From positions 496,001 to 560,000 of the forward strand of contig NZ_CP041040.1 in assembly GCF_006385575.1 (NCBI RefSeq): DNA of 64,000 bases. The letters are read 5' to 3'. Made by a program: the position numbers and the translations under genes. The notes beneath the pieces are model-generated. The model saw nothing but the letters and a program-made list of their open reading frames with translations, searched no databases and was not told the origin of the DNA. Shown in pieces: positions 48,181 through 63,184 of this stretch. Origin of the DNA: Microbacterium foliorum (GTDB lineage Bacteria > Actinomycetota > Actinomycetes > Actinomycetales > Microbacteriaceae). The first letter of the stretch is position 1. Every line of letters starts with the position of its first letter.

Positions 48181-48519
48181 ATGGGTAAGTTCATGTACGA
48201 GGGCGGTCAGAAGGTCGAGATCGAGGACCGTGCTCTGACTCATGTGCAGCTCGTCACCACGGCAAAGTTGCGTCGCGCGGAGCCGTTCCCGTTCACCTGG
48301 CGGGAAGATGTCAGCATCGGTGGCGGCCGGACGACGGTGTGGATCCACCCGGGCAGCAACCTCGTGTTCAAGTACTACGGGAGCCGCACACCCCCGGTCA
48401 ATCGCGCGTGGATAGACGCGTTGGCGTTCACGGCGAACTCGCCGTCCGGCCTCTACATGGTCCCGGAGCCAGCGGAGAGCACCAGGCTGGAACAGGACCT
48501 GGAGCCTGCCTCAAAGTAG
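48181..48519 (+). CDS. DUF7882-like small protein, type A (cassette 1)
   Basis: A 112-residue protein: MGKFMYEGGQKVEIEDRALTHVQLV, then TAKLRRAEPFPFTW, GGGRTTVWIHPGSNLVFKYYG and W-IDALAFTANS. Shared with type C in this window are IEDRAL-H, KLRR-E-F, GGR-(S/T)-x-W-x-HP and L-ANS. The family (now DUF7882 as I recall, formerly mis-annotated as ATP-dependent DNA ligase) is of unknown function. Type A differs from type C in the FTW-EDV-GGG insert and FKYYGSR. The gene B start lies 55 bp downstream, in the same direction. Confidence 0.75.
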   Translation: MGKFMYEGGQKVEIEDRALTHVQLVTTAKLRRAEPFPFTWREDVSIGGGRTTVWIHPGSNLVFKYYGSRTPPVNRAWIDALAFTANSPSGLYMVPEPAESTRLEQDLEPASK

Positions 48520-48574
48520 CCCGCTGGCGCAACCCCTTTCGGTGACGGAGCGGGGTCCTCGTAAGGTGCTCTCT

Positions 48575-48850
48575 ATGCATGAGCGGACGGTGGAGCAGAC
48601 TCACGTCAGCATCGACGGCTCTCGTTTCGTGCTTTCCCCGTCGCAGGACGTGGACGCGTTATGCGAGCAGCTGGAAGCTGCCGTGGCGGGGGCGGGATTG
48701 GTCGTGCGGTTCACGACGATGGAGGGCCGTCAGGTGAGAGCGTTGATCACGCCGCGTAGCCGGGTGCTGATCACCGATGAGAGCGTCATGTACGAGTCGG
48801 ACGACGCGGTGCTGTCGCTGGGCGCGTCCGGGAACTGGGATCTGCTCTAG
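48575..48850 (+). CDS. Small partner protein, type B (cassette 1)
   Basis: A 91-residue protein: MHERTVEQTHVSIDGSRFVLSPSQDVDALCEQLEAAV, then VRALITPRSRVLI and an ending SDDAVLSLGASGNWDLL. A clearly paralogous protein of exactly the same length is encoded at 56297-56572. TAAGGT ends 7 bases before the ATG, predicting a leaderless mRNA. Its stop overlaps that of convergent gene C within the four bases CTAG, and the same arrangement recurs in cassette 2. No known family; no membrane or catalytic motif. A single domain of beta-alpha-beta type is plausible. Confidence 0.7.
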   Translation: MHERTVEQTHVSIDGSRFVLSPSQDVDALCEQLEAAVAGAGLVVRFTTMEGRQVRALITPRSRVLITDESVMYESDDAVLSLGASGNWDLL

Positions 48851-49176
48851 GCGTTGCTGGCCTCGAGCTCGGTCGTCTCCAGGACCTCATCGACGAGCAT
48901 GATCCCGCCGCTGGAGTTCGCTGTGTACATCAGCTGTTCCACCCACTTCACGTTGATCTGGGGCTCTTCGGGTTCATCGAACACGAACCGCAGCGGGATC
49001 GAGGGGTGAACCCAGATTGTGGAGCGCCCGCCGGGCTCTCCTTCGGGGTGCTTCCAGGACAGAGTGAAGGACTCGTTGCGGCGCAGCTTGGTTGCGAGGA
49101 CGATCTTCAGGTGTGCGAGAGCACGGTCCTCGATATGGATCGCATCATCGGATGCCCCGTAGTGAAGAGTCGCCAT
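48847..49176 (-). CDS. DUF7882-like small protein, type C (cassette 1)
   Basis: A 109-residue protein: MATLHYGASDDAIHIEDRALAHLKIV, then ATKLRRNESFTLSWKHPEG, GGRSTIWVHPSIPLRFVFDEPEEPQINVKWVEQLMYTANSSGG and LETTELEASNA. It is close to the proteins encoded at 54359 and 55990. TAGGGT (49183-49188 on the minus strand) ends 6 bases before the ATG, so the mRNA is probably leaderless. It converges on gene B with overlapping stops. Confidence 0.75.
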   Translation of the reverse strand: MATLHYGASDDAIHIEDRALAHLKIVLATKLRRNESFTLSWKHPEGEPGGRSTIWVHPSIPLRFVFDEPEEPQINVKWVEQLMYTANSSGGIMLVDEVLETTELEASNA

Positions 49177-49589
49177 AAGCTCACCCTAGCGGCGGCAGTG
49201 ACCGGTGCCGCACGCAATCGCGCCGTCGAAAACCAGCGTGTGTCAGGCGGATCCTGACCAGGGGGCGCCGTGTTCCGCGCGTCGGGACGGAGGTGGGTGA
49301 TCGGGCGGCTGCTGAAGACTCTGGGGGGAGGGAGAGCAACCGCCCGACCGCGTCGAAGATACCGGTCCCCAGGAAGGTGCCCCCACCCATCGATGTCGCA
49401 GACGCGAAGCAACAGTCCCACCTTTTCCCAGGTCGCGCAAGACTACCTTCGAGTAGGAGCCGCGCAGGGAGCCAGTTCAGGGGAGCTGGTCGAGGACGAG
49501 TTCACCACGCGCGGCGACGTGCTCCATCATCCGCTCGATCCGTGCGGGGTCGCTAGGCCGCAGTATATCGGCCACGCATACGAGCGACC
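49177..49589. other. Region without a confident gene
   Basis: 413 bp. The first bases hold the leaderless promoter of gene C. A minus-strand frame of 32 codons (49477-49575) reads ADILRPSDPARIERMMEHV and is followed by a stop; it may be a real microprotein or a gene tail but has no independent support. Confidence 0.4.
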
Positions 49590-49955
49590 CTACGTCGTGC
49601 GCTGGGCGACGTCGATAGATCGCCGGTCCCCTCGCGTGTTCGGAGTACTGACCACGAGAAACCGAGTCTCCTCCACACCGGGATTGGAGAAACGATGAGC
49701 GAGGCCGGATGGGATCTCGACTCCCCGCCTGGGGCCCAGCTCCACAATGCCGTCGGCGGTCTGCATCTGAGGTGTGCCCTCAAGCACGTAGAAGAACTGT
49801 GTCGCGGTGTCATGCACATGCCACTCTTCGCCGGCTCCGGCCGGCACGCGCTCTTCGATCACCGACAACCCTGGTGTGTCGAATAACCGCCACCCATCGG
49901 ACACCCCACCCCAGATGTAATGCTCGACGTTCGTGGTATCGACTGACTTGCGCAT
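49590..49955 (-). CDS. Cupin domain protein
   Basis: A 121-residue single-cupin protein: RVPAGAGEEWHVHDTATQFFYVLEGTPQMQ holds the first metal-binding motif (W-H-V-H...E), and GVEIPSGLAHRFSNPGVEETRFLVVS the second (H). Small cupins act as isomerases, dioxygenases or ligand sensors; the role here is unknown. ATG 49955 has GGGAG upstream. A longer frame upstream is not supported. Confidence 0.8.
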   Translation of the reverse strand: MRKSVDTTNVEHYIWGGVSDGWRLFDTPGLSVIEERVPAGAGEEWHVHDTATQFFYVLEGTPQMQTADGIVELGPRRGVEIPSGLAHRFSNPGVEETRFLVVSTPNTRGDRRSIDVAQRTT

Positions 49956-50091
49956 GATTCGATTCTCCCGGACGCTCTCGCGACTTCCACCGTCTGGATA
50001 GCCAGCGGATGCGGCGATCGCCCGTCGGAAACGGTGCTGCTGGCACATCTCAGCTCTACTCATAGCGAGAGGCAGGAACCGGTTGGCGCGA

Positions 50092-51162
50092 TCACGGACG
50101 CCGCTCTGCGACTTCCGAAGCTTCGAGTCGGCACTCACTCGATGAGAGCGACGGCCCACCAACGACCCGAGAAAGAGCCACGATTGGCGAGCCGCCGCAG
50201 CGACACCATTGCTTTGGCAATTCCGTGGTGAGGATGAGGACGACGTCGGTGAGCTTCCAATCCAGCTCTTCACATCGTTGCTGTGCCGCGCGCAGATCTG
50301 CCAGCGTGGGCATTATGGCGTCGACGGGGACGATGAATGCCTCGAGGTGGAAGAATTGACCTTGGTCTCGCACGCGCACGGCCACTTCTCGAACCCAGGG
50401 CAGTGTCTCGAGGTACTCGAGAACGGCGTCGGATGCGGGGTGTGGTTTGTGATCATCGAACGTGGTGGCGCGGGTGTCCATGAGGTCGGTGATCGCAGCG
50501 CGGGTGTTGCGCAGTCCGTCCCGGAGGATACTGCCGGCGATGAACGTTGCTGCGGCCGAGTCGGCCCACCAGTATCCCAGGCCGATGCCTCCGACGCCGA
50601 CGCCGACGATGGAGCCCGCCGCGGTCATCCAGTCGGCTTTGTTCATGTCGGCGTCGGCGTAGAGGACTTTGTTGTGGAGGTCTTTCGCCAGTCGCATCTT
50701 GACGCGACCGAAGTAGATCGGAAGGGGGATGGTTAGTGCCATCACGCCCATCATCAACCATCCGGACCAGATCACGGTGCCGAACAGTTGGACGGAACCG
50801 ATGGGTGGCCGGTCGCCACTGATCAGCCCGGTCACGGAATCGAAGAGCAGGAAGGCGCCCATGGTGCAGAGGGCCACGCCGGCGACGAGGTGCACGACTC
50901 CGACCGAGCGGAAGAACCCGTAGGGGTACGTGTCGGACGGGGGTTTGGTGATGATGCGGACCGCTATCAGGAAAGCGATCGGGGGTGCCAGAGACAGCAG
51001 GTCTTCGATCCACGCCGCCTTCATAGCCTGCGAGCTGCCCATCACAAGGTTCACTCCCGTGATGGCGACAGCGAGGAAGCCGATTGTGAACCATTCGATT
51101 TGGATCGCGCGACGCAGCGTCTTCTGTTGCGCGGGGGGCAGGGTCGGGTGCGCCGTGTTCAG
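50092..51162 (-). CDS. Cation efflux (CDF-type) transporter with a probable CTG start
   Basis: A 356-residue membrane protein. Conserved sequence begins well upstream of the first ordinary start: RRAIQIEWFTIGFLAVAITGVNLVMGSSQAMKAAWIEDLLSLAPP, and only from there do all six helices appear. Histidine/aspartate sites include ADADMNKADWMTA. The cytoplasmic domain follows (LETLPWVREVAVRVRDQGQFFHLEAFIVP). CTG 51162 has GGAG upstream and overlaps the preceding stop as CTGA, just like the GTGA junctions elsewhere; GTG 51054 would cut the first helix. Zinc, iron or manganese export is plausible. Confidence 0.75.
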   Translation of the reverse strand: MNTAHPTLPPAQQKTLRRAIQIEWFTIGFLAVAITGVNLVMGSSQAMKAAWIEDLLSLAPPIAFLIAVRIITKPPSDTYPYGFFRSVGVVHLVAGVALCTMGAFLLFDSVTGLISGDRPPIGSVQLFGTVIWSGWLMMGVMALTIPLPIYFGRVKMRLAKDLHNKVLYADADMNKADWMTAAGSIVGVGVGGIGLGYWWADSAAATFIAGSILRDGLRNTRAAITDLMDTRATTFDDHKPHPASDAVLEYLETLPWVREVAVRVRDQGQFFHLEAFIVPVDAIMPTLADLRAAQQRCEELDWKLTDVVLILTTELPKQWCRCGGSPIVALSRVVGGPSLSSSECRLEASEVAERRP

Positions 51163-51647
51163 TTGTCGTCTCCGTGTTCGAGAAGGAATGTTTCCAGCGT
51201 CGTCAGGAACTGGTTTTCACCGAGGGCGGTCAACATCACATGCTTCTTCGTTGCCCCGGCGACCTGTTCGTCGTCGTAGGGGGCGGTGATCGCCGCTTTG
51301 TCGGTCCATGGAGTGTCATCGGTGAACCCGCCGATGACAACATCAAGGGAACCGGTGTGGAGGTGGTCGGTGAGGATGGCTTCACTTCCCTCTGTCCACA
51401 CAATGGTCGCGTCGATCGACTCGGCGAATTTCTCGACGAGTCGCACGTCCTCCCCGGATGGTGTGTCTGGGTCTGTGGTGTCTGTCCACGGTGGGTTGTG
51501 GGTGATTCCTACGCGTAGGTCGCCGCCCTGGGCAGTGCGGAGAGTGCCATCGACGTCGGCGGGTATCCCCGCACACCCGGAGAGCATCATTGCGGCCGCG
51601 ACAATCCCGCCGATCGCGGACGCACTCCACCGTCGTTTGATTGACAT
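51159..51647 (-). CDS. Short solute-binding lipoprotein (SBP family 3-like)
   Basis: A 162-residue lipoprotein: MSIKRRWSASAIGGIVAAAMMLSGC (lipobox Cys), then LRVGITHNPPWTDTTDPDTPSGEDVRLVEKFAESIDATIVWTEGSEAILTDHLHTGSLDVVIGGFTDDTPW, the first lobe of a family 3 amino-acid-type binding protein. The second lobe is much reduced, so the total length is about 60 percent of normal. It is coupled to the cation transporter downstream, an unusual pairing that suggests a capture or sensing role. Confidence 0.75.
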   Translation of the reverse strand: MSIKRRWSASAIGGIVAAAMMLSGCAGIPADVDGTLRTAQGGDLRVGITHNPPWTDTTDPDTPSGEDVRLVEKFAESIDATIVWTEGSEAILTDHLHTGSLDVVIGGFTDDTPWTDKAAITAPYDDEQVAGATKKHVMLTALGENQFLTTLETFLLEHGDDN

Positions 51648-51907
51648 CTGATTCCCCATCTGGTTGCTGTGGACAAGTGCGCGGTGTGATCGGCACCCAC
51701 CTGCAGGCGACAGTTCAGGCAGCGATTGCCCGGCTGAGGTCGTCATCCCACCCTGGGGATTGCGCCACGCCAGGGGGCTTCTGGGTATGGAACCGGGCAT
51801 CACCCTGTTCCGACGGTGGGCCCGAGTGCCAGGATCCTCGACGAACGATGATCACCCGGATTCCTCTCGGGTCAGGCGGACACGACGGGATCTCGATCGG
51901 TTTACAG
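51648..51907. other. Intergenic region
   Basis: 260 bp between the solute-binding lipoprotein and DksA-like genes. It should hold the promoter of the former. No gene is supported. Confidence 0.4.
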
Positions 51908-52237
51908 CTACGCGGCTTCGGCATGGTTCTGACACTCAATGCAGGCGGATGCATGGGGGACCACTTCGAGGCGTGCTGGCGCGATCTGTCGCCCGCATCG
52001 CACGCACTGACCGTACGTGCCCGCGTCCAGCCGCTCCAGAGCCGCGCTGATCTGTTGGATCGTGACGCGGTGCGCCGCTGCTGTCTGGTACGCGACAGGG
52101 TCGATGGTCGGAATCGCGCGAGGCTCCAGTTCCGCCAGAAGACTCTGACGCTCCTGGAGGCGCTGCTCGAGCTGCGTCCTCATATCGAGGGTGTGGGGGG
52201 TCTCGACCGTTACGTCAGAGAGGGGGAAATTTGCCAT
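51908..52237 (-). CDS. TraR/DksA-type zinc-finger protein
   Basis: A 109-residue protein with an N-terminal coiled-coil (LEQRLQERQSLLAELEPRA) and a C-terminal zinc finger C78-x2-C81...C99-x2-C102 (GQCVRCGRQIAPARLEVVPHASACIECQ), the TraR/DksA arrangement that inserts into the RNA polymerase secondary channel. AAAGGAG precedes ATG 52237. It may alter transcription in stress; several such genes exist in related genomes. Confidence 0.85.
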   Translation of the reverse strand: MANFPLSDVTVETPHTLDMRTQLEQRLQERQSLLAELEPRAIPTIDPVAYQTAAAHRVTIQQISAALERLDAGTYGQCVRCGRQIAPARLEVVPHASACIECQNHAEAA

Positions 52238-52310
52238 GACTGCTCCTTTGGGTACAAAAAAAGCGCCGCTTCCGCGACGCGCTGGGTGACCGGGTGGCCC
52301 GACGACGGGT

Positions 52311-52472
52311 CTACGGGGATGCAGCGCGGGATGGGGACCGGAAGAGCAGGTCGCCGCCGGTGAACCGGGGCGGAAGGACCTCGTGCCGCGCACCTGCGAT
52401 GTCGACCACACTCGTCACGACGGAGGCGTCTGCGAGGCGCTCCGAGCGAATGGGGTCAACACCGGTGGTCAT
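52311..52472 (-). CDS. Small hypothetical protein with leaderless promoter
   Basis: A 53-residue frame: MTTGVDPIRSERLADASVV, then VVDIAGARHEVLPPRFTGGDLLF. It is too short for most gene finders, but TTGCGT and TATGGT with 16-bp spacing lie upstream, and the -10 ends 7 bases before the ATG, as in other leaderless genes here. It lies 73 bp upstream of the DksA-like gene in the same direction. No family is recognised. Confidence 0.5.
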   Translation of the reverse strand: MTTGVDPIRSERLADASVVTSVVDIAGARHEVLPPRFTGGDLLFRSPSRAASP

Positions 52473-52479
52473 GGCCCTC

Positions 52480-52561
52480 ACCATAGCCTCACCTACAGAA
52501 AACGCAAGTTACCCACCTCGGTAGGCGAGCCGGTTGCGTTAACCCCCCGGCTAGCTAGGGT
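52480..52561. promoter_or_regulatory. Divergent promoters with TTGCGT -35 boxes
   Basis: Leftward: TTGCGT (52502-52507 complement), 16 bp, TATGGT (52480-52485 complement). Rightward: TTGCGT (52534-52539), 16 bp, TAGGGT (52556-52561). The two -35 boxes are mirror copies 26 bp apart, and a third TTGCGT-like copy (TTAACGCAAC, 52585-52594) lies downstream as an inverted match to GTTGCGTTAA (52533-52542). The rightward start point coincides with a 6-codon frame (MAALLA, 52568-52588). Confidence 0.5.
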
Positions 52562-52767
52562 GAGGGCATGGCAGCCCTTCTTGCTTAACGCAACGCTCTC
52601 GTTGCACAGCCGGCTGCCCGCTCCCGGGTTGCTGCGGATTCTTCCCCCAGTGACGGTTCGCGGTTCTTGCGTGTTCGACGGGCTCCACCGCAGCGCGCGT
52701 AACGCCTCGTAGCCACGTGCGCCGCGTCCTCTGGGATGCGCTCTCTTGCCGTACCCAAGGAAGCCCC

Positions 52768-52923
52768 ATGACCACCGAACACAGCCCCGCCGTACTCATC
52801 GGCGAAGCCGCGACAGCGCGCATTGCCGCGCTGCAAGAAACGCTCCATCGTCTCCGCGAACGTGAAACCCGCACCACCGCCTCGCGCGTATCGTCCTTCG
52901 ATGCGGAGATGCCATGCGAATGA
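52768..52923 (+). CDS. Small hypothetical protein
   Basis: A 51-residue protein (MTTEHSPAVLIGEAATARIAALQETLHRLRERETRTT), probably helical, with AAGGAAG before the ATG. Its 3' end overlaps the next gene by 10 bases, indicating an operon. Function unknown. Confidence 0.5.
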   Translation: MTTEHSPAVLIGEAATARIAALQETLHRLRERETRTTASRVSSFDAEMPCE

Positions 52924-53420
52924 CACACCACCGCAGTTCGCGGCACGTCGTCGAGGTGACCGGCGACCCCCTGCAATGCCTCAGCGCCACCGCAGAAGCC
53001 AAAAGTTCCGCGTCCTTGCCACCGAGCGTGAGCGTCATCGGGATCGACGGCACCAGCGCACACACCAGAGCCGGACTGGCAGCCCTCCTTCGCCGCCACA
53101 AGCGCAACATGTCGACAGTCCCCGCCTCGCTGTCTCACGTCATCGTCGTCATCGATCACCCCCACTGCACCGACGCGTGGACGACCTCGAAGGTTCACCG
53201 ATGGGCCATGTCCATCCATCGACGCATCCAACGAGCACGCGGCATCGACACCGACGTCACCGCACTTCTGGTGAACCGAGACGTCGACCCCCACCTCATC
53301 TGCGAACGTATCCTGGAGCTCGCAGGGCGCCCTCCAGGAGTAAATCCGGCAGCAGTGCACACCATGCACGACATTCGTGCACACACCATTGCCCAAGCAT
53401 CCGCAAACGACTTCATCTGA
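52914..53420 (+). CDS. Hypothetical protein
   Basis: A 168-residue protein. The core SVSVIGIDGTSAHTRAGLAALLRRHKRN, LSHVIVVIDHP, WAMSIHRRIQRARGIDTDVTALLVNRDVDPHLICERILELAG alternates strands and helices like a Rossmann-type fold, but no nucleotide-binding motif is evident. Cysteines and histidines are frequent. No family recognised. Translationally coupled to the 51-residue protein upstream. Confidence 0.55.
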   Translation: MRMTHHRSSRHVVEVTGDPLQCLSATAEAKSSASLPPSVSVIGIDGTSAHTRAGLAALLRRHKRNMSTVPASLSHVIVVIDHPHCTDAWTTSKVHRWAMSIHRRIQRARGIDTDVTALLVNRDVDPHLICERILELAGRPPGVNPAAVHTMHDIRAHTIAQASANDFI

Positions 53421-53536
53421 AAGGAAAGGCCTTTTCCTACACCGCGACTGCGCGGCGGATTGCAAAGTTGACTTCCCTTGGAAGACGGCTATGGTCAGAG
53501 GTTCATCCGCCAGCCAAATAGGGGAAGCGAGTTCTG

Positions 53537-53671
53537 ATGCCCGGTAAGTCACCAACCACACGTGGAGCGAAAAAGGTCGCTCAGCTGTCGATCAAGGAAA
53601 AGCGAGCGGCCAAGCGCGAAAAGCGCGAACCCGACGTCTTCCTCAAGCCGCGCAAGGGAGCGAGCCGCTGA
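53537..53671 (+). CDS. Small basic protein
   Basis: A 44-residue protein (MPGKSPTTRGAKKVAQLSIKEKRAAKREKREPDVFLKPRKGASR) with GGGGAAG upstream. Highly basic, helical, without membrane segment, so a nucleic-acid or ribosome-associated role is possible. Such short KKxAQLSxKEKR proteins are, in my memory, common and unannotated in actinobacteria. Confidence 0.55.
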   Translation: MPGKSPTTRGAKKVAQLSIKEKRAAKREKREPDVFLKPRKGASR

Positions 53672-53748
53672 TCGGCTGACCGGGGGACCCCTTGGGTGCG
53701 AGGAGTTCCCCGGTCGCAACCGACCGCTCGCAACCGTTCAGGAGCAGG

Positions 53749-54297
53749 ATGCAACCCTCGACAGTGTTCACCATCGGTCACTCCACACACCCGATCGAGG
53801 AGTTCATAGCGCTGCTCGAAAACAACGGCGTGCAACAACTCATCGATGTGCGGACGGTTCCCGGCTCGCGACATAACCCGCAATTCGGCGCGCAGGCGCT
53901 TGAGGAAAGCCTGACGGACGCAGGCCTGCACTATGCGCGGATGGAAGAACTCGGCGGTCTCCGCCACACACCAGTGAATGTGGAGAGCATCAACGGCGCC
54001 TGGCGCAACAAAAGCTTCCGAAGCTACGCCGACTACATGCAAACCGAGCCCTTCGCGCGTGGAATAGACCGTCTGATCGATCGAGCAAAAGAGAAGACTG
54101 TGGCGATCATGTGCGCGGAAGCGGTCCCGTGGCGCTGCCACCGGTCTCTCATCGCGGATGCGCTGCTCGTTCGCCACATTTCTGTGAAGGACATCATGAG
54201 CGCCACCTCCACCAAACCCCACACACTCACGTCGTTCGCGTCGGTGGACGGGCAGCGGGTCTGGTACCCGCCCACTAACCTGGAAGGGCAACCGTAG
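53749..54297 (+). CDS. DUF488 domain protein
   Basis: A 182-residue protein with the family features FTIGHSTHPIEEFIALLENNGVQQLIDVRTVPGSRHNPQF, MEELGGLRHTP, FRSYADYM and the MCAEAVPWRCHRSLIADALL motif (C and H residues conserved in the family). The biochemical role is not settled; associations with DNA repair and nucleotide-like substrates have been suggested. GGAGCAGG is the ribosome binding site. It is near two DNA-repair-type genes. Confidence 0.85.
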   Translation: MQPSTVFTIGHSTHPIEEFIALLENNGVQQLIDVRTVPGSRHNPQFGAQALEESLTDAGLHYARMEELGGLRHTPVNVESINGAWRNKSFRSYADYMQTEPFARGIDRLIDRAKEKTVAIMCAEAVPWRCHRSLIADALLVRHISVKDIMSATSTKPHTLTSFASVDGQRVWYPPTNLEGQP

Positions 54298-54358
54298 GCA
54301 TAGCGAGCCTCTCGCCGATGTGACCGAGTTGTCATTCCGAGAATGGATGTCGTCCACC

Positions 54359-54673
54359 ATGGGCACACTGCACTACGGCGGGTCGGAAGCGCCGATCCAC
54401 ATCGAGGAACGTGCCCTCGCACACCTCAAAGTGATCGTCGCCACCAAGCTCCGCCGCAACGAGTCTTTCACCCTGTCCTGGCGTTATCCGGAAGGGGACC
54501 CTGAAGGGCGCAGCACCATCTGGCTACACCCGTCGATCCCACTGCAATTCACCTTCGATGAGCTCGAACCCCCGCAACTCAACCTGCAATGGATCCACGC
54601 GCTGATGGAGCCAGCCAACAGCTCCGGAGGCGTCACGTTCCTCGAGGGAGTCCTGGAAACACCCACAGGATGA
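54359..54673 (+). CDS. DUF7882-like small protein, type C (solo copy)
   Basis: A 104-residue paralogue of the type C proteins: MGTLHYGGSEAPIHIEERALAHLKVIVATKLRRNESFTLSWRYPEGDPEGRSTIW, ending VTFLEGVLETPTG. It lies between the two cassettes without an adjacent B gene. The usual IEDRAL motif is IEERAL here. Start by alignment with the other copies; a leaderless -10 is not obvious. Confidence 0.7.
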   Translation: MGTLHYGGSEAPIHIEERALAHLKVIVATKLRRNESFTLSWRYPEGDPEGRSTIWLHPSIPLQFTFDELEPPQLNLQWIHALMEPANSSGGVTFLEGVLETPTG

Positions 54674-54953
54674 CCCCCACTCGAGTGGGAACGATACTAC
54701 GCGGGCCCGCCTTGCGTATTGCGCGTTAAAGACTCTCTAGCCGAGGGGCAGCCTTCTCGAAACGATGAGTTCCCCAGAACCGAGGTTCCGAGAGGGCTCG
54801 TCACAGATGCGTGACATCGCCTCGTTGCGTGTGGCGTAGCGCCCCAGACGCTCCGCAAGTAGCCCCAGCTACTAACCAAACGTTACCATCCATGTCCACC
54901 AAAAGGGGGACAGGGCGGCCAAGCTGCAGCGGCGCGGCGATTGCTACAGGAAC
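54674..54953. other. Intergenic region
   Basis: 280 bp with no supported gene, between the solo type C gene and the glycosylase-like gene, which converge. Confidence 0.4.
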
Positions 54954-55574
54954 TTACCGCAGTGCCCTCTCGACGTGCAGACGAAGGTCCTCCACGACAT
55001 CCGTCGCAAACCACGGGTTCCTGGCATGCCAGCGAAAGTTCAGCGGCGAGGGATGCACCAGCGGGAACCGTTCGGGAAGGAACTGCTCGTAGTTCCGCAC
55101 GGTATCGGTCAGAGTCTGTGTGGTGGCGATCGGTAGATATGCCTGCTGGGCATATCTACCGATGAGAAGGGTCAATCGGATACTCGGCATCAACGCGAAA
55201 AAAGGTGGGTGCCACCGGGCGGCGACGCCTTGTCGCGGAGGCGCATCACCCGATCCGTTCCGACCGGGTCCGGGGTAGTAAAAGTCCATCGGCAGGAGAG
55301 CGAACTGTTCCGGGTCGCGGAATTGTCTTTCCGTGACCCCCAGCCATTCCATGAGCGTGGCGCCACTCGCGTCGTCCCAGGGCACCCCGCTGGCTTGTGC
55401 ACGCCGACCCGGCGCCTGACCGATGACCGCGACACGGGCGCCCGCGCCCGCCGTATATACGGGATCTATGCCCTGCTCTCGGAAACCGCTGTTGGCGACA
55501 TCGTGGATCAGCTCATGGCGAAGTAGAGCGAAAGGATCAGGAGCTTCGACGTTGCTCAAGAAGTCTCCTGACAT
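54954..55574 (-). CDS. Uracil-DNA glycosylase superfamily protein
   Basis: A 206-residue UDG-fold protein: ARVAVIGQAPGRRAQASGVPWDDASGATLMEWLGV (the G-Q-A-P-G nucleotide-flipping motif A), YYPGPGRNGSGDAPP, FFALMPSIRLTLLIGRYAQQAYL and the motif B-like PLVHPSPLNFRWHARNPWF (H-P-S-P-x-N). These uracil-DNA-glycosylase-like proteins often act on deaminated bases. A TTG at 55559 with AGGAG five bases upstream may be the true start; ATG 55574 overlaps the MGMT-like gene by 38 bp. Confidence 0.85.
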   Translation of the reverse strand: MSGDFLSNVEAPDPFALLRHELIHDVANSGFREQGIDPVYTAGAGARVAVIGQAPGRRAQASGVPWDDASGATLMEWLGVTERQFRDPEQFALLPMDFYYPGPGRNGSGDAPPRQGVAARWHPPFFALMPSIRLTLLIGRYAQQAYLPIATTQTLTDTVRNYEQFLPERFPLVHPSPLNFRWHARNPWFATDVVEDLRLHVERALR

Positions 55575-55825
55575 CGACTCGTTCACCACACGTCGGTGTC
55601 TTCTCCTCCCGAAGAAGAGTACGAGCGGCACCATCATGACAGGTCGCCGGAGACCCATCGCTGTGCACCACTCGCCACCAAGGACTGTCATCTTCGAGCC
55701 GTGCCACCAGCCGGCCCGCCTGCCGGGGATGAACCCCCCACCAGCGCAGCAATCTCGCCGTAGGTGATCACCTGGCCCGAGGGAACGGCGTCGACGATTC
55801 GCCGAACCTCTTCCAGAAGACTCAC
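55537..55825 (-). pseudogene. MGMT/Atl-like DNA repair protein, frameshifted at a G6 run
   Basis: From GTG 55825 (with GGAGG at a good distance) the frame reads LLEEVRRIVDAVPSGQVITYGEIAALVG, then is lost. One base away it continues GVHPRQAGRLVARLEDDSPWWRVVHSDGSPA, the alkyltransferase-like helix-turn-helix (ATL) pattern. A run of six G bases at the join (about 55736-55741) must lose one G to restore the frame. The active Cys of MGMT (PCHR) is replaced by PWWRVV, so this would be an Atl protein that marks damaged guanines. It is upstream of the glycosylase gene. Confidence 0.75.
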
Positions 55826-55989
55826 TACTGCCTCCAAGTGCGGGTCTAAGGAGTGCATCATCTACGTTAGCGAACGGCGCGACCACAAAGATCAGACGCA
55901 GATGGCCTTCGACTATCTGGTCGGCCGTCAAGGATCAGCGCGGCGTCGCACGCGGGTCTGTGACTGGCACCATCAGTAGGGTAGGTCGC

Positions 55990-56300
55990 ATGGCCATCCT
56001 GTTTTACGGTCCAGGCACCGAGCCGATTCACATCGAAGATCGTGAGCTCGCTCATCTCAAACTGGTGATTGCGACGAAGCTGCGCCGCAATGAGAGCTTC
56101 ACGCTCTCCTGGAAACACCCCGACGGTCGTTCAACGATCTGGATTCATCCCTCGATTCCGTTGCGGTTCGTGTTCGAAGAACCGGAACCACCGCAGATCA
56201 ACATGAATGGGTGGAGCAGCTCATGCACACGGCGAACTCCAGCGGCGGGATTGCGCTCGTCGATGAAATGCTGGACACGCCCGAACTCGAGCAGGCCTAG
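55990..56300 (+). pseudogene. DUF7882-like small protein, type C (cassette 2), frameshifted
   Basis: Reads MAILFYGPGTEPIHIEDRELAHLKLVIATKLRRNESFTLSWKHPDGRSTIWIHPSIPLRFVFEEPEPPQIN, then leaves frame after 56205. The expected continuation WVEQLMHTANSSGGIALVDE follows in the next frame and ends with a stop at 56298-56300, so one base is missing at about 56206-56208. TAGGGT ends 7 bases before ATG 55990, as in a leaderless gene. The stop overlaps that of convergent gene B in CTAG, as in cassette 1. Confidence 0.8.
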
Positions 56301-56572
56301 AGCAGATCCCAGCTCCCCGACCCATTCAGCGAAAGCACGGCGTCGTCGGAATCGACATGCACGTCCTCTTCAGAGATCACAACCCGGCTGCTCGGGGTGA
56401 TCAGCGCTCTCACCCGTCGCTCATCCGCGGCTACGAAGAGCACTGCCCTCCCCGTCCCCGTGACGGCAGCTTCCAGCCGATCACACAGCTGCTCGATGTC
56501 CTGCGAGGGAGCAAGGACAAAACTGGAGCCGTCGATGCTGACACGAGTCTGCACCACCGAACGCTCACACAT
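56297..56572 (-). CDS. Small partner protein, type B (cassette 2)
   Basis: A 91-residue paralogue of the protein at 48575 with identical length: MCERSVVQTRVSIDGSSFVLAPSQDIEQLCDRLEAAV, VRALITPSSRVVI and SDDAVLSLNGSGSWDLL. Roughly half of the residues agree over the whole length. TAGGGT ends 6 bases before ATG 56572 on the minus strand. Intact frame, so the two B copies are both likely functional. Confidence 0.7.
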   Translation of the reverse strand: MCERSVVQTRVSIDGSSFVLAPSQDIEQLCDRLEAAVTGTGRAVLFVAADERRVRALITPSSRVVISEEDVHVDSDDAVLSLNGSGSWDLL

Positions 56573-56619
56573 GCCAGAACCCTACATACGAGTGCTACGC
56601 GCTCGAAGGGGGGGGGCAA

Positions 56620-56967
56620 TCACGCGCGGATTGAGGCAGTCTCCGAGTCGCGCTCCAACCGTGTTCCTTCTACCGGTTCAGGCGTGAGGTACAGCACCGT
56701 GGGGGAGTTCGCGCCAAAGGCGAGAGCATCCAGCCAGGCGCGGTTGATCGCTGGCGCTCGACTACCGAAGAATTTGAACACCATCGAACTGCCCGGGTGG
56801 ATCCAGACGCTTGTGCGGCCCCCACCAGTGCTCACGTCTTCCTTCCACGTGAAAGTGAAAGGTTCACCGCGCCGCAACTTCGCAGTCATCACGAGCTGAA
56901 GATGCGTGAGAGCACGATCTTCGATCTCAACCTTCGGCCCACCCTCGTAAATAAACTGGCTCTTCCC
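56620..56967 (-). pseudogene. DUF7882-like small protein, type A (cassette 2), start lost next to an IS end
   Basis: Encodes GKSQFIYEGGPKVEIEDRALTHLQLVMTAKLRRGEPFTFTWKEDVSTGGGRTSVWIHPGSSMVFKFFGSR, closely similar to the type A protein at 48181. The ATG that begins cassette 1 (ATGGGTAAG) is replaced here by CTGGGAAG, so only ATT or an internal ATG at 56892 could start it. The insertion-sequence-derived block begins 28 bp upstream (56995), and probably destroyed the promoter and start. Confidence 0.7.
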
Positions 56968-56994
56968 AGATGAAGGTGTAGGTCGGCCGGGCGC

Positions 56995-57123
56995 GTCGGT
57001 CCGCAGATAGACGTCGAGGTCTCCCGACGATGGAGGTTCCTACGCCATCCATCCGAAAGACCTCGACGTGCCCGACGCTACCCCGCCGGCCGGCTTCGGC
57101 CGCCCTGACCTAACCGCCTTCGC
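56995..57123. repeat. Truncated left part of the ISL3-family element (copy 1 of a 129-bp direct repeat)
   Basis: 129 bp match 58747-58875 with about three differences, and include the transposase start (GTGCCCGACGC, encoding MPDATPPAGFGRPDLTAFA). After 57123 the match stops abruptly. It is a relic of a second copy of the same element, in direct orientation. Confidence 0.85.
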
Positions 57124-57351
57124 GGCTCATCCCAATCGGCTCTGCTCGGGTCTGCTGACCCTCTCGACGAGAACGCAGCGACATCACAGCCACCCAACCC
57201 CGACCGTCCGGGAAGCCGGGGCACGTCACATGGGCTGTGCTGCGGGCGTGTCGAGTGGGTAGTCCAGGGGCGACGCACGAGCGTCGACGCGACGTGCTGA
57301 GAGGTGGTTCCAACCGAGCGCTAGGACACAAGCTACAGGCATGGCGATAGG

Positions 57352-58293
57352 TCAGGAACGGCGTCGCTCCCTGCGCAGGAGGGAGCGCAGAGTCTCGGCG
57401 TTTGCGTAGCCGACCCGTAGCGCGATCTCGGCGGAGGTGAGGTCCGTGGTTGCTGAGAGGTGTCGAGCTCGTTCGGTGCGAAGCCGTTGGACGAAGCCGA
57501 GCGGAGTGAGGTTGAGCGCCGCACGGACTCGTCGTTCGAGGGTGCGCCGGCTGGTGCCGAGCGACTGCGCGACGAAGGCGACGTTGAACGGTTCGTCCAG
57601 GCGGGCGCGCACGAAGCGTTCGAACTCGACGACGATCGGGTCCTCGTGCCGGAGATGTTCGTAGGCGACGAAAGCCGCCTGCGACGGGCGCTCGTCGATG
57701 ATGAGGAGCTTGGCGACATGTTGGGCCAGGTCGGGGCTGATCGATCGCACGAGTGAGAGCGCGAGGTCGATGTGGGCGAAGGCGGCGCCGGCGGTGACGA
57801 GGTTCCCGTCGACCACGACCATGGTGTCGAGATCGAGGGCGACGGTCGGATAGCGCTTCCGGAACTCCGGCCCCAGGAACCAGCTGGTCGTCGCCCGCCG
57901 ATGATGCATCCGTCCTGTCTCGGCGACGGCGAACACGCCGGTGCACGCCGCGGCGATCCGGGTGGTCGCGTCGTCGAGGCGCCCGAGTGAGGCGATGACC
58001 GAACGAGCATCTCGACTCTGGAGGGCGTCGTGGGTCGCGGCGGCCGTGAGGGTTCCAAGCGCAGGGACGACGACCACGTCGAACTCTCCGGACTCCGGCA
58101 GCGGGTGGTCCACCGACAGGGTCATCGATGCCGTCGTGGTCACTCGCCGTTTCGGTCCGAGGATGGCGAGTTCGATCGGGTCGATCCGCGGGTCGACATC
58201 GCCGCGGGCTCCGTCGGCCACCCGCACGATGTCGATGATCGACGCGATAGCCGAACCGAAGCAGCCGTCGATCGCGATCAGTCCGATACGCAT
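57352..58293 (-). CDS. GlxA/AraC-family regulator with DJ-1/PfpI-like domain
   Basis: A 313-residue regulator: RIGLIAIDGCFGSAIASIIDIVRVAD and FDVVVVPALGTL...RIAAACTGVFAVAETG belong to the amidase-like (DJ-1/PfpI) domain, with a Cys at the nucleophile elbow (AACTGVF). The C-terminal AraC helix-turn-helix reads FNVAFVAQSLGTSRRTLERRVRAALNLTPLGFVQRLRTERARHLSATTDLTSAEIALRVGYANAETLRSLLRRE. ATG 58293 fits the family. It is divergent from the monooxygenase gene, which it probably regulates. Confidence 0.88.
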   Translation of the reverse strand: MRIGLIAIDGCFGSAIASIIDIVRVADGARGDVDPRIDPIELAILGPKRRVTTTASMTLSVDHPLPESGEFDVVVVPALGTLTAAATHDALQSRDARSVIASLGRLDDATTRIAAACTGVFAVAETGRMHHRRATTSWFLGPEFRKRYPTVALDLDTMVVVDGNLVTAGAAFAHIDLALSLVRSISPDLAQHVAKLLIIDERPSQAAFVAYEHLRHEDPIVVEFERFVRARLDEPFNVAFVAQSLGTSRRTLERRVRAALNLTPLGFVQRLRTERARHLSATTDLTSAEIALRVGYANAETLRSLLRRERRRS

Positions 58294-58400
58294 GACGTAA
58301 ACAATAGCAATACTGCCGTATACGCCACTCCCCACCGGCCCTCGCTCGTCATACGCTGAACTCGTCCCACGAAGAACCCCGACGTCAAGGAGAGTCCCTC

Positions 58401-58712
58401 ATGTCCACACCCGCATCACTTCCGTATGCCTTCGTCGCCAAGATCGTCGCGGCCGATGGACAGCACGACGCGGTCGCCGATCTGCTCGCCGGCGCTGTCG
58501 CACTCGCCAACGAAGAAGTAGGAACGATTGTCTGGTTCGCGGTCAGGACCCACGCCGACACCTTCTGGATCTTCGATGCATTCCCCGACGAAGCCGCTCG
58601 CGACGCCCACGCCAACGGCGCCATCGTCGCAGCCCTGATGGCCAACCAGCACCTCCTCGGCGCAGCACCCGAGATCCTGGCGGCCGACGTCCTCGCGTCC
58701 AAGCTCCCGTAG
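58401..58712 (+). CDS. ABM-type antibiotic biosynthesis/quinol monooxygenase
   Basis: A 103-residue ferredoxin-like protein: YAFVAKIVAADGQHDAVADLLAGAVALANEEVGTIVWFAVRTHADTFWIFDAFPDEAARDAHANGAIVAALM. The E-x-G-T-x-x-W, F-I-F-D-x-F and A-H motifs match small quinol monooxygenases such as YgiN. AAGGAGAG is the ribosome binding site. Divergent from its probable regulator, as is common for GlxA-type regulators of electrophile stress. Confidence 0.85.
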   Translation: MSTPASLPYAFVAKIVAADGQHDAVADLLAGAVALANEEVGTIVWFAVRTHADTFWIFDAFPDEAARDAHANGAIVAALMANQHLLGAAPEILAADVLASKLP

Positions 58713-58746
58713 TCCGCCAACGCACGAGACGATCGCGCCCCGCCGA

Positions 58747-58875
58747 GTCGGTCCGCAGATAGACGTCGAGGTCTCCCGACGATGGAGGTTCCTACGCCAT
58801 CCATCGGAAAGACCTCGACGTGCCCGACGCTACCCCGCCGCCCGGCTTCGGCCGCCCTGACCTGACCGCCTTCGC
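58747..58875. repeat. Left part of the ISL3-family element (copy 2 of the 129-bp direct repeat)
   Basis: Matches 56995-57123 from GTCGGTCCGCAGATAG onward and leads into the intact transposase gene. Both copies begin at the same base, which suggests an element end or a shared recombination point. No inverted copy of this start was found at the right end of the transposase gene. Confidence 0.85.
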
Positions 58876-60145
58876 TCGACTCGACGGCCTCGGTCTGAGC
58901 GTGATCGGGCAACGACTTGAACCGGATCGTGCGGTCCTCGCGTGCCGCGTGGTGGAACCAGATCAGTGGTGCCGACGGTGCGGCAGCGAAGGCGCCGCTC
59001 GTGACACCGTGATCCGGCGGTTGGCCCACGAGCCGCTGGGCTGGCGACCGACCGTGCTGGAAGTTGTAGTGCGCCGCTACCGCTGTGCAGACTGCGGACA
59101 AGTGTGGCGCCAAGACACCAGCGCCGCGGCGGAGCCACGCGCGAAGCTCTCGCGCACCGGGCTGCGGTGGGCGCTGGAAGGGATCGTGGTCGCACACCTC
59201 ACCGTCGCCCGTGTCGCCGAGGGACTCGGGGTCGCGTGGGACACCGCCAACAACGCGGTCCTGGCCGAAGGCAAGCGGCTGCTGATCAACGACCCCACGC
59301 GGTTCGAGGGCGTGAAGGTGATTGGCGTCGATGAGCACGTCTGGCGCCACACCAGGCGTGGCGACAAGTACGTCACCGTGATCATCGACCTCACCCCGGT
59401 CCGCGATGGCGCCGGCCCAGCAAGGCTGCTGGACATGGTCGAGGGCCGGTCGAAGGCGGCGTTCAAGACCTGGCTCGCCGACCGCGACGACGCCTTCCGT
59501 GACGCGGTCGAGGTGGTCGCGATGGACGGCTTCACCGGGTTCAAGACCGCCGCTGCGGAGGAGATCCCGGACGCGGTCACGGTGATGGATCCCTTCCACG
59601 TCGTGCGCGTGGCCGGTGACGCCCTCGACAGGTGCCGGCGCCGGGTCCAACTCGCGATCCACGGGCACCGTGGGTTCAGGGACGATCCGCTCTACAAGTC
59701 GCGGCGCACGCTGCACACCGGCTCGGACCTGCTCACCGACAAGCAGAGCGACAGGCTACGCGCGCTGTTCGTTGATGACGCTCACGTCGAGGTCGAGGCG
59801 ACCTGGGGTGTCTACCAGCGGATGATCGCCGCCTATCGCCACGAGGACCGGCAACGTGGCCGCGAGCTCATGGAGAAGCTGATCACCGACCTCAGCGCCG
59901 GCGTCCCCAAGGTGCTCACCGAGCTCGCCACCCTGGGCCGGACCCTGAAGAAGCGAGCCACCGACGTGCTCGCCTACTTCGAACGACCCGGCACCAGCAA
60001 CGGGCCGACCGAGGCACTCAACGGACGGCTCGAACACCTGCGCGGCTCCGCACTCGGGTTCCGCAACCTGACCAACTACATCGCCCGAAGCCTGCTCGAG
60101 ACCGGCGGCTTCAGACCCCAACTCCTACACCCCCGATTGGGATGA
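58820..60145 (+). CDS. ISL3-family transposase
   Basis: A 441-residue transposase. The N-terminal zinc-binding domain has C51-x2-C54 and C89-x2-C92 (WCRRCGSE, YRCADCGQVW). The helix-turn-helix has HLTVARVAEGLGVAWDTANNAV. The DDE catalytic core has VIGVDEHVWRHTRRGDKYVTVIIDL (first D), VEVVAMDGFTGFKTA (second D), DPFHVVRVAGDALD and STNGPTEAL-type NGPTEALNGRLEHLRGSALGFRNLTNY (E). All catalytic residues are present and the length is normal, so it should be active. GTG start with no strong ribosome binding site. Confidence 0.93.
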   Translation: MPDATPPPGFGRPDLTAFARLDGLGLSVIGQRLEPDRAVLACRVVEPDQWCRRCGSEGAARDTVIRRLAHEPLGWRPTVLEVVVRRYRCADCGQVWRQDTSAAAEPRAKLSRTGLRWALEGIVVAHLTVARVAEGLGVAWDTANNAVLAEGKRLLINDPTRFEGVKVIGVDEHVWRHTRRGDKYVTVIIDLTPVRDGAGPARLLDMVEGRSKAAFKTWLADRDDAFRDAVEVVAMDGFTGFKTAAAEEIPDAVTVMDPFHVVRVAGDALDRCRRRVQLAIHGHRGFRDDPLYKSRRTLHTGSDLLTDKQSDRLRALFVDDAHVEVEATWGVYQRMIAAYRHEDRQRGRELMEKLITDLSAGVPKVLTELATLGRTLKKRATDVLAYFERPGTSNGPTEALNGRLEHLRGSALGFRNLTNYIARSLLETGGFRPQLLHPRLG

Positions 60146-60150
60146 GCCGC

Positions 60151-60623
60151 TTTACGCGGAATCGGTGGACTTCAAAGCGGGCACGGCGACCGTCGAGGCT
60201 ATCAACATCCGGATCAAGCAGGAGGGGGTCGTCAGGCAGGGTTTCCCGAAGACGGAGAAGTCGTCCAGGGTCACGCCACTGCCCGAGGCGACGATGGCTA
60301 TGCTCGCTCGGCGCCGCGATCGCCTTGAGGAGTTCACGCCTGCTCTATTTCCCACTCCGTTGATGAAACTGAGGGATCCGTCGAACACTCAGCGCGAACT
60401 GCGAGAGAGCCGCGATTCACTCGGTTACCCCGAACTGTCGACGCACTCGTTCCGCAAGACCGTGGCGACTGTCCTGGGTAAAGCCGGGATGTCAGTTAAC
60501 GAGGTTGCTGACTACCTCGGTCATGAGAACCCCAGCTTGACGATGGAGACCTATCTCCACACGCTGCGCAACGACCCCAAGCCGGCGCGAATCCTCGAGG
60601 AGCAGCTCAAGGGCCTGTTTTGA
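60151..60623 (+). pseudogene. Tyrosine site-specific integrase, N-terminus lost
   Basis: Only the distal half of a phage-type integrase remains: LYAESVDFKAGTATVE, KTEKSSRVTPLP, LSTHSFRKTVATVLGKAGMSVNEVADYLGHENPSLTMETYLH. The H-x-x-R (HSFR), GH and catalytic Tyr (TYLH) motifs are present, but the core-binding domain and first catalytic arginine are gone, cut exactly where the mobile unit ends. A short protein from GTG 60165 could still be made but not be active. The tRNA-Phe fragment 140 bp downstream is the likely attachment site of the original element. Confidence 0.85.
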
Positions 60624-60698
60624 AAGTGCGGGGTTTTTGCGGGGTGTCCGACTGTTAGACCCTCTCCGGGGCAGGGCACGCCCGTGTCGGCGCAAGGC

Positions 60699-60733
60699 AA
60701 AACCCCCGCCATGTAGAAGCTAGGCGAGGGTTT
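60699..60733 (-). terminator. Hairpin terminator (leftward)
   Basis: AAACCCCCGCC (60700-60710) pairs with GGCGAGGGTTT (60723-60733) with one mismatch, and on the minus strand the stem is followed by TTTT. It may be the terminator that once followed the tRNA-Phe gene whose fragment lies upstream of it on that strand. Confidence 0.6.
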
Positions 60734-60760
60734 CTGGGACCGTTGTAATGACGGTCCTTG

Positions 60761-60806
60761 TGGCTCCGACGGGCGTCGATCCCGTGACCTCACGATTTTC
60801 AGTCAG
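60761..60806 (-). other. 3' half of a tRNA-Phe gene (candidate attachment site)
   Basis: On the minus strand the 46 bases run from the anticodon arm GACTGAAAATC (anticodon GAA) through GTGAGGTCACGGGATCGACGCCCG to the acceptor end TCGGAGCCA. The 5' half (acceptor, D arm) is absent. This is the core expected of an attachment site in tRNA-Phe, beside the integrase remnant. Confidence 0.7.
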
Positions 60807-60815
60807 ATTTGCGCC

Positions 60816-61553
60816 TCATCGCCTGGATTCCTTGGCGCTCACACTCGCGGAGTTGCGGTGATCTGTGTGATCTATGTGATCACCTCGATCGTCTTTCGCG
60901 CCGGGAGTTGTGGTCAAACTGTGGTCAAAGTGGTCAGCCGGCACGCGAACTCCACGTTGTTCCAGGAAGCTAGCCATGCGTCGAAGCTCAGCTAAGGATT
61001 CGGCCACGCGGTTGCGGAGATGCCCCAGATCGTTGAAGCCGGCGAACTTACGATTGACCTGAAGCGCCCTCGCTAGCGACTCCGTATGGTGCGCGACTTC
61101 TCGTCGTTGCATTTCATAGCTTCGAAGCGCAACCAGGGCAGCGGTTTCTTCAGGCGTCTCCGCGTTCACATCCATGAATAGTCGGTGCCCCTCGAACGGG
61201 AGGGACAGCCATTCGAGGAAGTCGATCGCGGACATCGTCGCGATCTCCTCACTGACTCCTGGAATCCCTGTCGGCTCGTAGGGACGGTGGTGGTCGACGA
61301 GGATCTGCTGTGGTGCAACGCCCAATGCTCTGGACAGCTCGAGAAGCTCGACGACTGTCAGATCGAGCTTGCGCCCCAGCTCGATGTTGCTGACGACCTT
61401 CGCGCTGAGGCGTGCGTTAGGGATAGCGGCAGCTAGCTCGCGAACGGATCGGAATCCGCGACACAGACGCAGCTCTCGGATGCGCTCACCGATCGAGCGC
61501 GCAAACGAATCTTTCCCCGATTCGGACCAATCCATCCCTCCATGGTGTCTCAC
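60816..61553 (-). CDS. XRE-family helix-turn-helix regulator
   Basis: A 245-residue protein with an N-terminal XRE domain (IGERIRELRLCRGFRSVRELAAAIPNARLSAKVVSNIELGRKLDLTVVELLELSRALGV, about 21-79) and a C-terminal helical region of unknown function ending in a His/Asp-rich tail (DHIDHTDH). It is divergent from the excisionase-like gene and so probably controls the mobile-element operon, like phage or conjugative-element repressors. GTG 61553 or ATG 61535 may be the start. Confidence 0.85.
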   Translation of the reverse strand: MRHHGGMDWSESGKDSFARSIGERIRELRLCRGFRSVRELAAAIPNARLSAKVVSNIELGRKLDLTVVELLELSRALGVAPQQILVDHHRPYEPTGIPGVSEEIATMSAIDFLEWLSLPFEGHRLFMDVNAETPEETAALVALRSYEMQRREVAHHTESLARALQVNRKFAGFNDLGHLRNRVAESLAELRRMASFLEQRGVRVPADHFDHSLTTTPGAKDDRGDHIDHTDHRNSASVSAKESRR

Positions 61554-61619
61554 ACTTCAGACGTTGTCATCGTCGAAGCAAGTGCTCACAGAGAACGAGC
61601 ACAACGAAACGAAGGGGAC

Positions 61620-61817
61620 ATGATCATGGATGACTCACTACTTACGCCCGCGGAAGCCGCCCTCATCGCCGGAATGACGACTGGCGCGCTGGCCCGGCTT
61701 CGCTACCTCGGCAAGGGGCCCGACTTCTACAGGCTGGGACCTCGAACGATTCGCTACGCGCGTTCTGAAGTCGTTGAGTGGATCCGCCAGAGCCGCACCA
61801 CGGCGAGCGGCAGGTGA
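61620..61817 (+). CDS. Excisionase-like / MerR-type helix-turn-helix protein
   Basis: A 65-residue protein: LLTPAEAALIAGMTTGALARLRYLGKGPDFYRLGPRTIRYARSEVVEWIRQS, the winged-helix pattern of phage excisionases and AlpA-type regulators. GAAGGGGAC is the ribosome binding site for ATG 61620. Its stop overlaps the next start (GTGA). Confidence 0.88.
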   Translation: MIMDDSLLTPAEAALIAGMTTGALARLRYLGKGPDFYRLGPRTIRYARSEVVEWIRQSRTTASGR

Positions 61818-63088
61818 CCCGGTTGGTTACTCAGATACCTGAGCTCGCGGACGCGCTCGATTCTGCTCAGCGGGCTATTCGCCGATACTGCGTTCTGCCG
61901 GACGCGGCGTCGTATGACGCAGTGACGCTGTGGGCGGCCGCATCCCACGTGGTTCCCGCCCTAGATGTTGCACCGAGGTTGGTGATCCGATCAGCCGAGA
62001 AACGATCGGGGAAGACGCGCTTGCTCGAGGTGCTGAGCCTGCTGGTCAACGACCCTGTGCGATTCGCCGACGTCAGCGTTCCGTATCTCTTCCGACGCAT
62101 CGAGAAGGCAGGGGACACCCCGCCGACGTTGATGCTCGACGAGGCGGACGCGATCTTCTCAGCGGGACGGCCGAGTGAACGCTCCGAAGCCCTCCGCGGA
62201 ATCCTCAACACCGGATTCCAGCGGGGTTTCGTATACGGCCGGGTCGAGAAGCCGAACAATCAGCTGAAGGAGTATCGAGTCTTCGCCCTGGCAGCGATCG
62301 CTTCGATCGGCGCACTGCCGGACACTATCGAAGACCGAGCGATAGTACTCACTATGCGTCGGCGTTCGGGAACTGAACTCGTTGAGCAGTTCCGGCTTAG
62401 GGACGCAGGGGAGTACCTCGCCGTAGTGCGCCATCGCCTGCATCGTCTGCTCACCGACCACCAAGATGAGATAGCCGGTGTCCGCCCCGAACTGCCGGTG
62501 GAAGACCGCGCAGCTGATCTTTGGGAGCCGCTCGTCGCAGTGGCCCATCTTGCAGGAGACGAATGGATCAATCGCGCCTGGACGGCAGCAATCACCATGG
62601 TCGAGCAAGCGCGAGAGGACGAGAGCTCCGCGAACGTCGGCTTGGCGCTTCTGGAAGCCACTCGCGAAGTACTCAACTCGTACCGCGATGGCGCATGGAT
62701 CGGCAGCGTCCAGCTGGTCGAAGCCCTCAGCAAGGTGCCCGAATACCGCGATTTGGCAAGTGCGCTGGGAGTCGCCGGAGTCGCTCGGGTACTTCGTCTA
62801 TACGGAGTCCGACCCGCCAACCATCGTGTCGGGGAGAGCGTGCGAAAGGGATATCGACTCGTCGATCTCCGCGACGCATGGATGCGGTACCTCCCCTCTG
62901 CGCTTTCGCCCGCTACAGGAGCTACGCCGCTACTTCCGCAGAGAGATCAGGAGGAAGCAGCCACGCGACAAGCTACACATCCGCTACGCACCGCTACCCA
63001 CGAAGCGAACCGAGGGCAAGGGAATGCGGAGCATCCCGCGGCAGCCTCTGTTTCCCACATCGAAGAGGTGACGCATGTGCGGTCATGA
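61814..63088 (+). CDS. DUF3631-type ATPase of a mobile element
   Basis: A 424-residue protein: LVIRSAEKRSGKTRLLEVLSLLV (a degenerate P-loop, S-x4-SGKT), PTLMLDEADAIFSAG (Walker B D-E-A-D), LRGILNTGFQRGFVYGRVEK, FALAAIASIGALPDTIEDRAIVLTMRRR and a C-terminal winged-helix-like region (SALGVAGVARVLRLYGVRP). DUF3631 proteins sit in actinobacterial phages, plasmids and integrative elements, probably in replication priming or helicase functions. The tail is Ala/Thr-rich. Translationally coupled to the excisionase-like gene. Confidence 0.85.
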   Translation: MTRLVTQIPELADALDSAQRAIRRYCVLPDAASYDAVTLWAAASHVVPALDVAPRLVIRSAEKRSGKTRLLEVLSLLVNDPVRFADVSVPYLFRRIEKAGDTPPTLMLDEADAIFSAGRPSERSEALRGILNTGFQRGFVYGRVEKPNNQLKEYRVFALAAIASIGALPDTIEDRAIVLTMRRRSGTELVEQFRLRDAGEYLAVVRHRLHRLLTDHQDEIAGVRPELPVEDRAADLWEPLVAVAHLAGDEWINRAWTAAITMVEQAREDESSANVGLALLEATREVLNSYRDGAWIGSVQLVEALSKVPEYRDLASALGVAGVARVLRLYGVRPANHRVGESVRKGYRLVDLRDAWMRYLPSALSPATGATPLLPQRDQEEAATRQATHPLRTATHEANRGQGNAEHPAAASVSHIEEVTHVRS

Positions 63089-63184
63089 ATCCTGCAGAGC
63101 AAGCTATACGGTTAGGGCCCCTAATTCGGCTTGTCTGTCCAGTCGAAGTTTCTCCCGTTCGCTGCGCTGGGCATGGAGAGCATG

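Follow-up and report, generated by a model that had tools for sequence, protein, structure and literature searches.

The locus described here is a cassette of three small-protein genes, A, B and C, that lies twice, in opposite orientations, in a 64,000-nucleotide stretch of the Microbacterium foliorum genome (GCF_006385575.1, NZ_CP041040.1, positions 496,001-560,000, forward strand). The whole stretch is referred to as the window, and coordinates are window-based. A and C belong to one family, DUF7882 (PF25355). B lies beside DUF7882 genes far more often than expected by chance, and many B genes of the genus carry an upstream element that is also present at some photolyase genes. Cassette 1 and a third C-type gene consist of the following features.

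48181-48519, + strand: A1, DUF7882 (PF25355), 112 amino acids, 'MGKFMYEGG' type; open reading frame (ORF), Pfam 117.2 bits (cut-off 27).
48530-48536 and 48562-48567, + strand: putative leaderless B1 promoter, CAACCCC and -10 TAAGGT, the latter 7 bases before the ATG; geometry as at other B genes.
48575-48850, + strand: B1, 91 amino acids from the conserved ATG, without a Pfam or NCBIfam match above cut-off; ORF, structure model.
48847-49176, - strand: C1, DUF7882, 109 amino acids; ORF, Pfam 129.5 bits.
54359-54673, + strand: C3, third C-type DUF7882 gene, 104 amino acids, downstream of a DUF488 gene; Pfam 123 bits.

Coordinates, strands and stops agree with the original prediction of an A(+) B(+) C(-) cassette at 48181-49176, in which CTAG (48847-48850) holds the overlapping stop codons of B1 and C1; the third C copy was also placed correctly at 54359. 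B1 begins at GTG 48542 in the ORF list, and the conserved ATG was taken as its start instead. The A1 and C1 proteins are 38% identical. Both score far above the curated PF25355 cut-off, as does C3, and the copies in cassette 2 also exceed it, which bears out the earlier grouping of A and C in one family. The second cassette has the following parts.

55990-56300, + strand: C2, DUF7882 pseudogene, frameshift near 56207, present ORF to 56400; Pfam 93.5 bits over residues 1-73, inverted-repeat alignment.
56297-56572, - strand: B2, 91 amino acids, intact; ORF.
56620-56957, - strand: A2, startless DUF7882 remnant, truncated by the end of an insertion sequence (IS) at 56958; Pfam 79.2 bits.

C2 is one base shorter than C1 near 56207 (inverted-repeat arms I5/I6), and its ORF therefore continues to 56400; the CTAG at 56297-56300 holds, for C2, the stop of the original frame only, beyond reach of the C2 start. 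This frameshift may be a sequencing error. A2 lacks a standard start codon, its homology running only to 56957, and the first in-frame GTG, at 56892, is internal. Since bases 56950-56957 were not found again to the right of the IS, where an integrase fragment lies, the A2 start seems to have been lost and not merely interrupted by the element, which belongs to the ISL3 family. Thus, cassette 2 is a relic, an old decayed copy in which B2 alone is intact. The predicted order C(+) B(-) A(-) stands for the intact B2 and the C2 start at 55990 but has to be amended for a frameshifted C2 and a startless A2; overlapping stops in CTAG apply to cassette 1 and not to cassette 2; and the cassette end placed at 56967 falls inside the ISL3 element, which begins at 56958. 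B is indeed 91 residues long in both cassettes. The inverted-repeat arms are 71-85% identical and the proteins 75% (A1/A2), 64% (B1/B2) and 79% (C1/C2, 72 residues before the frameshift), so the copies are old, and the recent duplication that more than 95% DNA identity would have indicated does not apply. Nonsynonymous divergence between the copies is lower than synonymous divergence (dN < dS).

The link between B and DUF7882 was examined across the genus. Among 98 B matches, 95 were fetched; the two copies in the window and G085:C1:3124774, which falls within L048, were not taken as separate loci. Of the 95, 84 count as strong and the other 11, at E 4e-7 to 1e-3, as weak. The stretches cover 3 kb on each side, some being shorter at contig ends, gaps are those between matched regions and not gene ends, and the DUF7882 places are those among the matches listed. 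DUF7882 lies within 500 bp of 31 of the 84 strong B genes and farther off in 3, and 50 have none in the fetched stretch. Gene density predicts about 0.15 such close pairs, or 0.4 at 17 DUF7882 copies per genome (767 DUF7882 matches over 119 genomes, assumed mean size 3.55 Mb). DUF7882 was also within 500 bp at 8 of the 11 weak B loci and at 7 of 28 B loci outside the genus; it was present at none of 31 photolyase loci that served as a control, each covering 1.5 kb to either side. Every one of the 65 genus genomes with a B match also has DUF7882, and the 6 genomes without DUF7882 have no B match. A tree of 86 B proteins, which draws on few columns and has many weakly supported forks, requires 16 changes of the label "beside DUF7882", of which well-supported branches force at least 8; thus, the link is not one inherited locus.

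The association of B with DUF7882 is real, but it is neither obligate nor of one arrangement. The 31 close pairs, in which the window copies are not counted, are divergent in 18 cases, tandem in 12 and convergent in 1, and 17 of the 18 divergent pairs have a gap of 99-163 bp. The conserved convergent order proposed for B beside A/C is therefore not the rule; beyond the window and Microbacterium sp. H83, one convergent close pair was seen elsewhere in the window's genome, at 3002 kb, and one outside the genus (L162). The original prediction had named beforehand, as evidence against an obligate unit, B genes commonly found without A or C nearby, and this is the situation of the 50 B genes noted above. 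Its suggestion that the three proteins work together survives as an excess of B/DUF7882 neighbours and fails as a fixed three-gene unit.

A second line of evidence comes from the B upstream regions. In 54 of 96 regions a TANNNT begins 11-15 bases ahead of the start (control frequency 0.04), and B genes tend, judging from sequence, to be leaderless. CAACCCC occurs within 100 bases upstream in 42 of the 96, against 0.9 expected, mostly at -43 to -45, and in 30 of 33 measured pairs it lies 31-32 bases before the -10. The element is centred near -41 relative to a leaderless start, which would be a fitting place for an activator to bind. The form CAA[C/G/T]CCC with this geometry was found at 54 of 922 non-redundant genes, called heuristically in loci chosen around B, photolyase and DUF7882: 35 of 71 B genes, 11 of 40 photolyase genes, 5 of 94 DUF7882 genes and 3 of 717 others, namely two DUF3072-like genes and one of the inositol-phosphatase family. 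Seven control 7-mers were given the same geometry; six gave none and CAGCCCC two. DUF3072-like genes at L225, L231, L233 and L240 bear the CAATCCC variant (Pfam was run on L225 only). The element was absent from the 28 B genes outside the genus.

In the window's genome, the full geometry is seen at 3 of 38 CGCAACCCC sites, which lie before B1, a lipase maturation factor gene and a gene for a small putative lipoprotein. It is also seen at a TGCAACCCC site in front of a second B of this genome. CAACCCC was not seen in the 70 bases upstream of B2. With its promoter in the gap after A1, B1 need not rely on transcription of A1. A photolyase gene lies within 3 kb of 16 of the 84 strong B genes, with two changes on the B tree, and the bare element occurs at -42 to -44 in 10 of 30 photolyase genes sampled regardless of B. 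At L065, the only one of the 16 loci inspected, B and photolyase are separated by an Asp23 gene. A literature search found no paper on a photolyase promoter motif in Microbacteriaceae.

DUF7882 was named in 2025 with the CryoRhodopsin paper, whose authors describe the family as putative cytoplasmic transducers, compare it to bacterial PH domains and report AlphaFold3-predicted pentamers forming a ring that would bind the rhodopsin C terminus (PMC12227055). The term was not found elsewhere in the literature searched. The earlier statement that no function is known is thus partly superseded; B is unnamed. The window's genome has 15 DUF7882 matches and no rhodopsin (PF01036) match. Across the genus, DUF7882 is present in 113 of 119 genomes and rhodopsin in 2 of 119, so the common role of DUF7882 cannot be rhodopsin signalling alone. 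Among 30 rhodopsin loci of Microbacteriaceae (2 of the 30 rhodopsin matches being under the family cut-off), DUF7882 was present in 6, so that the published link was seen here as well, and no rhodopsin partner for B was found. In a class-wide sample 11 of 246 genomes had DUF7882, all in the window's family, Microbacteriaceae. A profile search matched 5640 proteins (the best 120 of 5640 were listed). Matches also occur on 17 plasmid records, in 7 of which the match is labelled "ATP-dependent DNA ligase". The label is probably a misannotation, as no ligase model matches A1, C1 or C3, all of which match DUF7882. Matches of C1 to ISW1 and coronavirus nsp entries of the PDB (E 0.004 to 2) were taken as chance hits, being absent when the family profile is used. 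DUF7882 genes often stand in runs of two to four copies, many with alternating orientation (L202-L241). A Pfam scan of 80 neighbours from 40 loci gave no single partner; AraC-type regulators were the commonest (10 of 80, from partly orthologous loci).

Neither B1 nor B2 has a Pfam or NCBIfam match above cut-off; phosphoglucose isomerase and the other weak Pfam matches fall below it. B1 has no match among plasmids and phages, nor C1 among phages. The closest fold match of the B model is Rv3208A (PDB 7rus, 7rur), a DUF3107 (PF11305) protein, and the best VIA match of the DUF7882 model is also Rv3208A, weaker than that of B. The predicted cores of B and DUF7882 have the same order of elements, strand-strand-helix-three strands; this common core is a feature of the predicted models, and profile comparison found no sequence homology between the two. 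The DUF3107 profile match to B is weak, and neither B1 nor B2 matched PF11305 at E up to 1.

A mobile element adjoins cassette 2 on the right.

56958-60153, no strand assigned: ISL3-family element with cargo, cutting A2; alignment to Microbacterium sp. H83, ORFs.

Its cargo includes an AraC/GlxA-type regulator and a small ORF that is presumably monooxygenase-like. In H83 the element sits at a different site (L046 4853-7979), with an intact cassette 1 copy on its left, and is bordered by the 8-base target repeat CCTTTTCC. Alignment of the H83 and window elements gives one piece of 2558 bases at 99.7% identity and another of 584 bases at 99.1%, separated by a short stretch that does not align. 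The ISL3 element, regulator and monooxygenase-like cargo seem to move as one unit. The H83 cassette 1 copy is 96.4% identical over 1.3 kb and has a different left flank, containing an ORF that we assume to be an IS3-type transposase. Window positions 60165-63837 hold an integrase fragment, a DUF3631 protein and a NikA/MobC-type mobilisation protein and look like the remains of an integrated mobilisable element.

Tentatively, and with clearly less than even confidence, we propose that these proteins are small adaptors, in which DUF7882 couples to an upstream partner and B is an inducible companion, in a light/ultraviolet (UV) or general stress setting. A and C are paralogues within DUF7882, and B, a small protein distinct from them, is probably cytosolic. 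By analogy with the role proposed for CryoRhodopsin transducers, DUF7882 may form ring- or sheet-like adaptors that couple to the upstream partner. B could be a companion of the same kind, joining or competing for DUF7882 assemblies, and B1 would be expressed from its own leaderless promoter with CAACCCC. Some photolyase genes in the genus have an element of this type, which makes a light/UV or general stress setting likely. Two observations weigh against a simple light regulon. The photolyase gene of the window's own genome is without the element. Near B, 12 of 16 photolyase genes have the full geometry, against 4 of 30 sampled regardless of B, and 3 of those 4 also belong to the near-B set; where photolyase genes carry the full element, they mostly lie close to B.

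These same observations favour the view that the element is a general stress or stationary-phase promoter and B a general stress protein unconnected with light, a view that overlaps the adaptor proposal and is given about the same, less than even, confidence. The element also precedes DUF3072, inositol-phosphatase-family, lipase maturation factor and putative lipoprotein genes, and the L065 Asp23 product is a cell-envelope protein; against this, nearly all of its occurrences among the 922 called genes precede B, photolyase or DUF7882, the very genes around which the loci were selected. Rather unlikely is the explanation that B and DUF7882 act separately, as small proteins of similar fold whose genes gather in permissive spots through duplication and transfer. 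Runs of DUF7882 genes in alternating orientation, the many B genes that stand alone and the near-identical (96%) H83 cassette with its changed left flank and nearby IS elements would fit it, but the narrow spacing of divergent pairs and the recurrence of the link on the B tree and outside the genus would not. A more specific form of the adaptor proposal, that the two families are a rhodopsin-independent light/UV module in which B is induced by the regulator of photolyase and docks on DUF7882 rings at the site used by the CryoRhodopsin C terminus, is improbable. A selfish cassette of toxin-antitoxin or defence type, which small multi-copy genes, IS elements, plasmid-borne DUF7882 and a decaying second copy might suggest, is very improbable, as A1, B1 and C1 gave no PADLOC (E up to 0.1) or PHROG match, B1 is unmatched among plasmids and phages and C1 among phages, the members are common without each other and B1 has its own promoter.

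The small-adaptor proposal concerns a family with thousands of members for which the literature searched holds one published role idea, a rhodopsin-based one, and the rhodopsins behind it are missing from most Microbacterium genomes examined. The recurrent unnamed neighbour B, together with an element common to some photolyase genes, provides a concrete handle on the role of DUF7882.

Two known systems can be compared. DUF3107, the family of Rv3208A, was found as a single copy in 72 of 79 class genomes, whereas B and DUF7882 frequently occur in several copies and DUF7882, in the class-wide sample, was seen in the window's family alone. The A/C genes differ from CryoRhodopsin transducer genes in that they adjoin no CryoRhodopsin gene, their genome being without rhodopsin and having many DUF7882 copies, and a B-like partner is not mentioned in the parts of the CryoRhodopsin paper drawn on here (PMC12227055). 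They resemble those transducers in the strong PF25355 scores of A1, C1 and C3, in small size and in a C-terminal tail that is modelled with low confidence.

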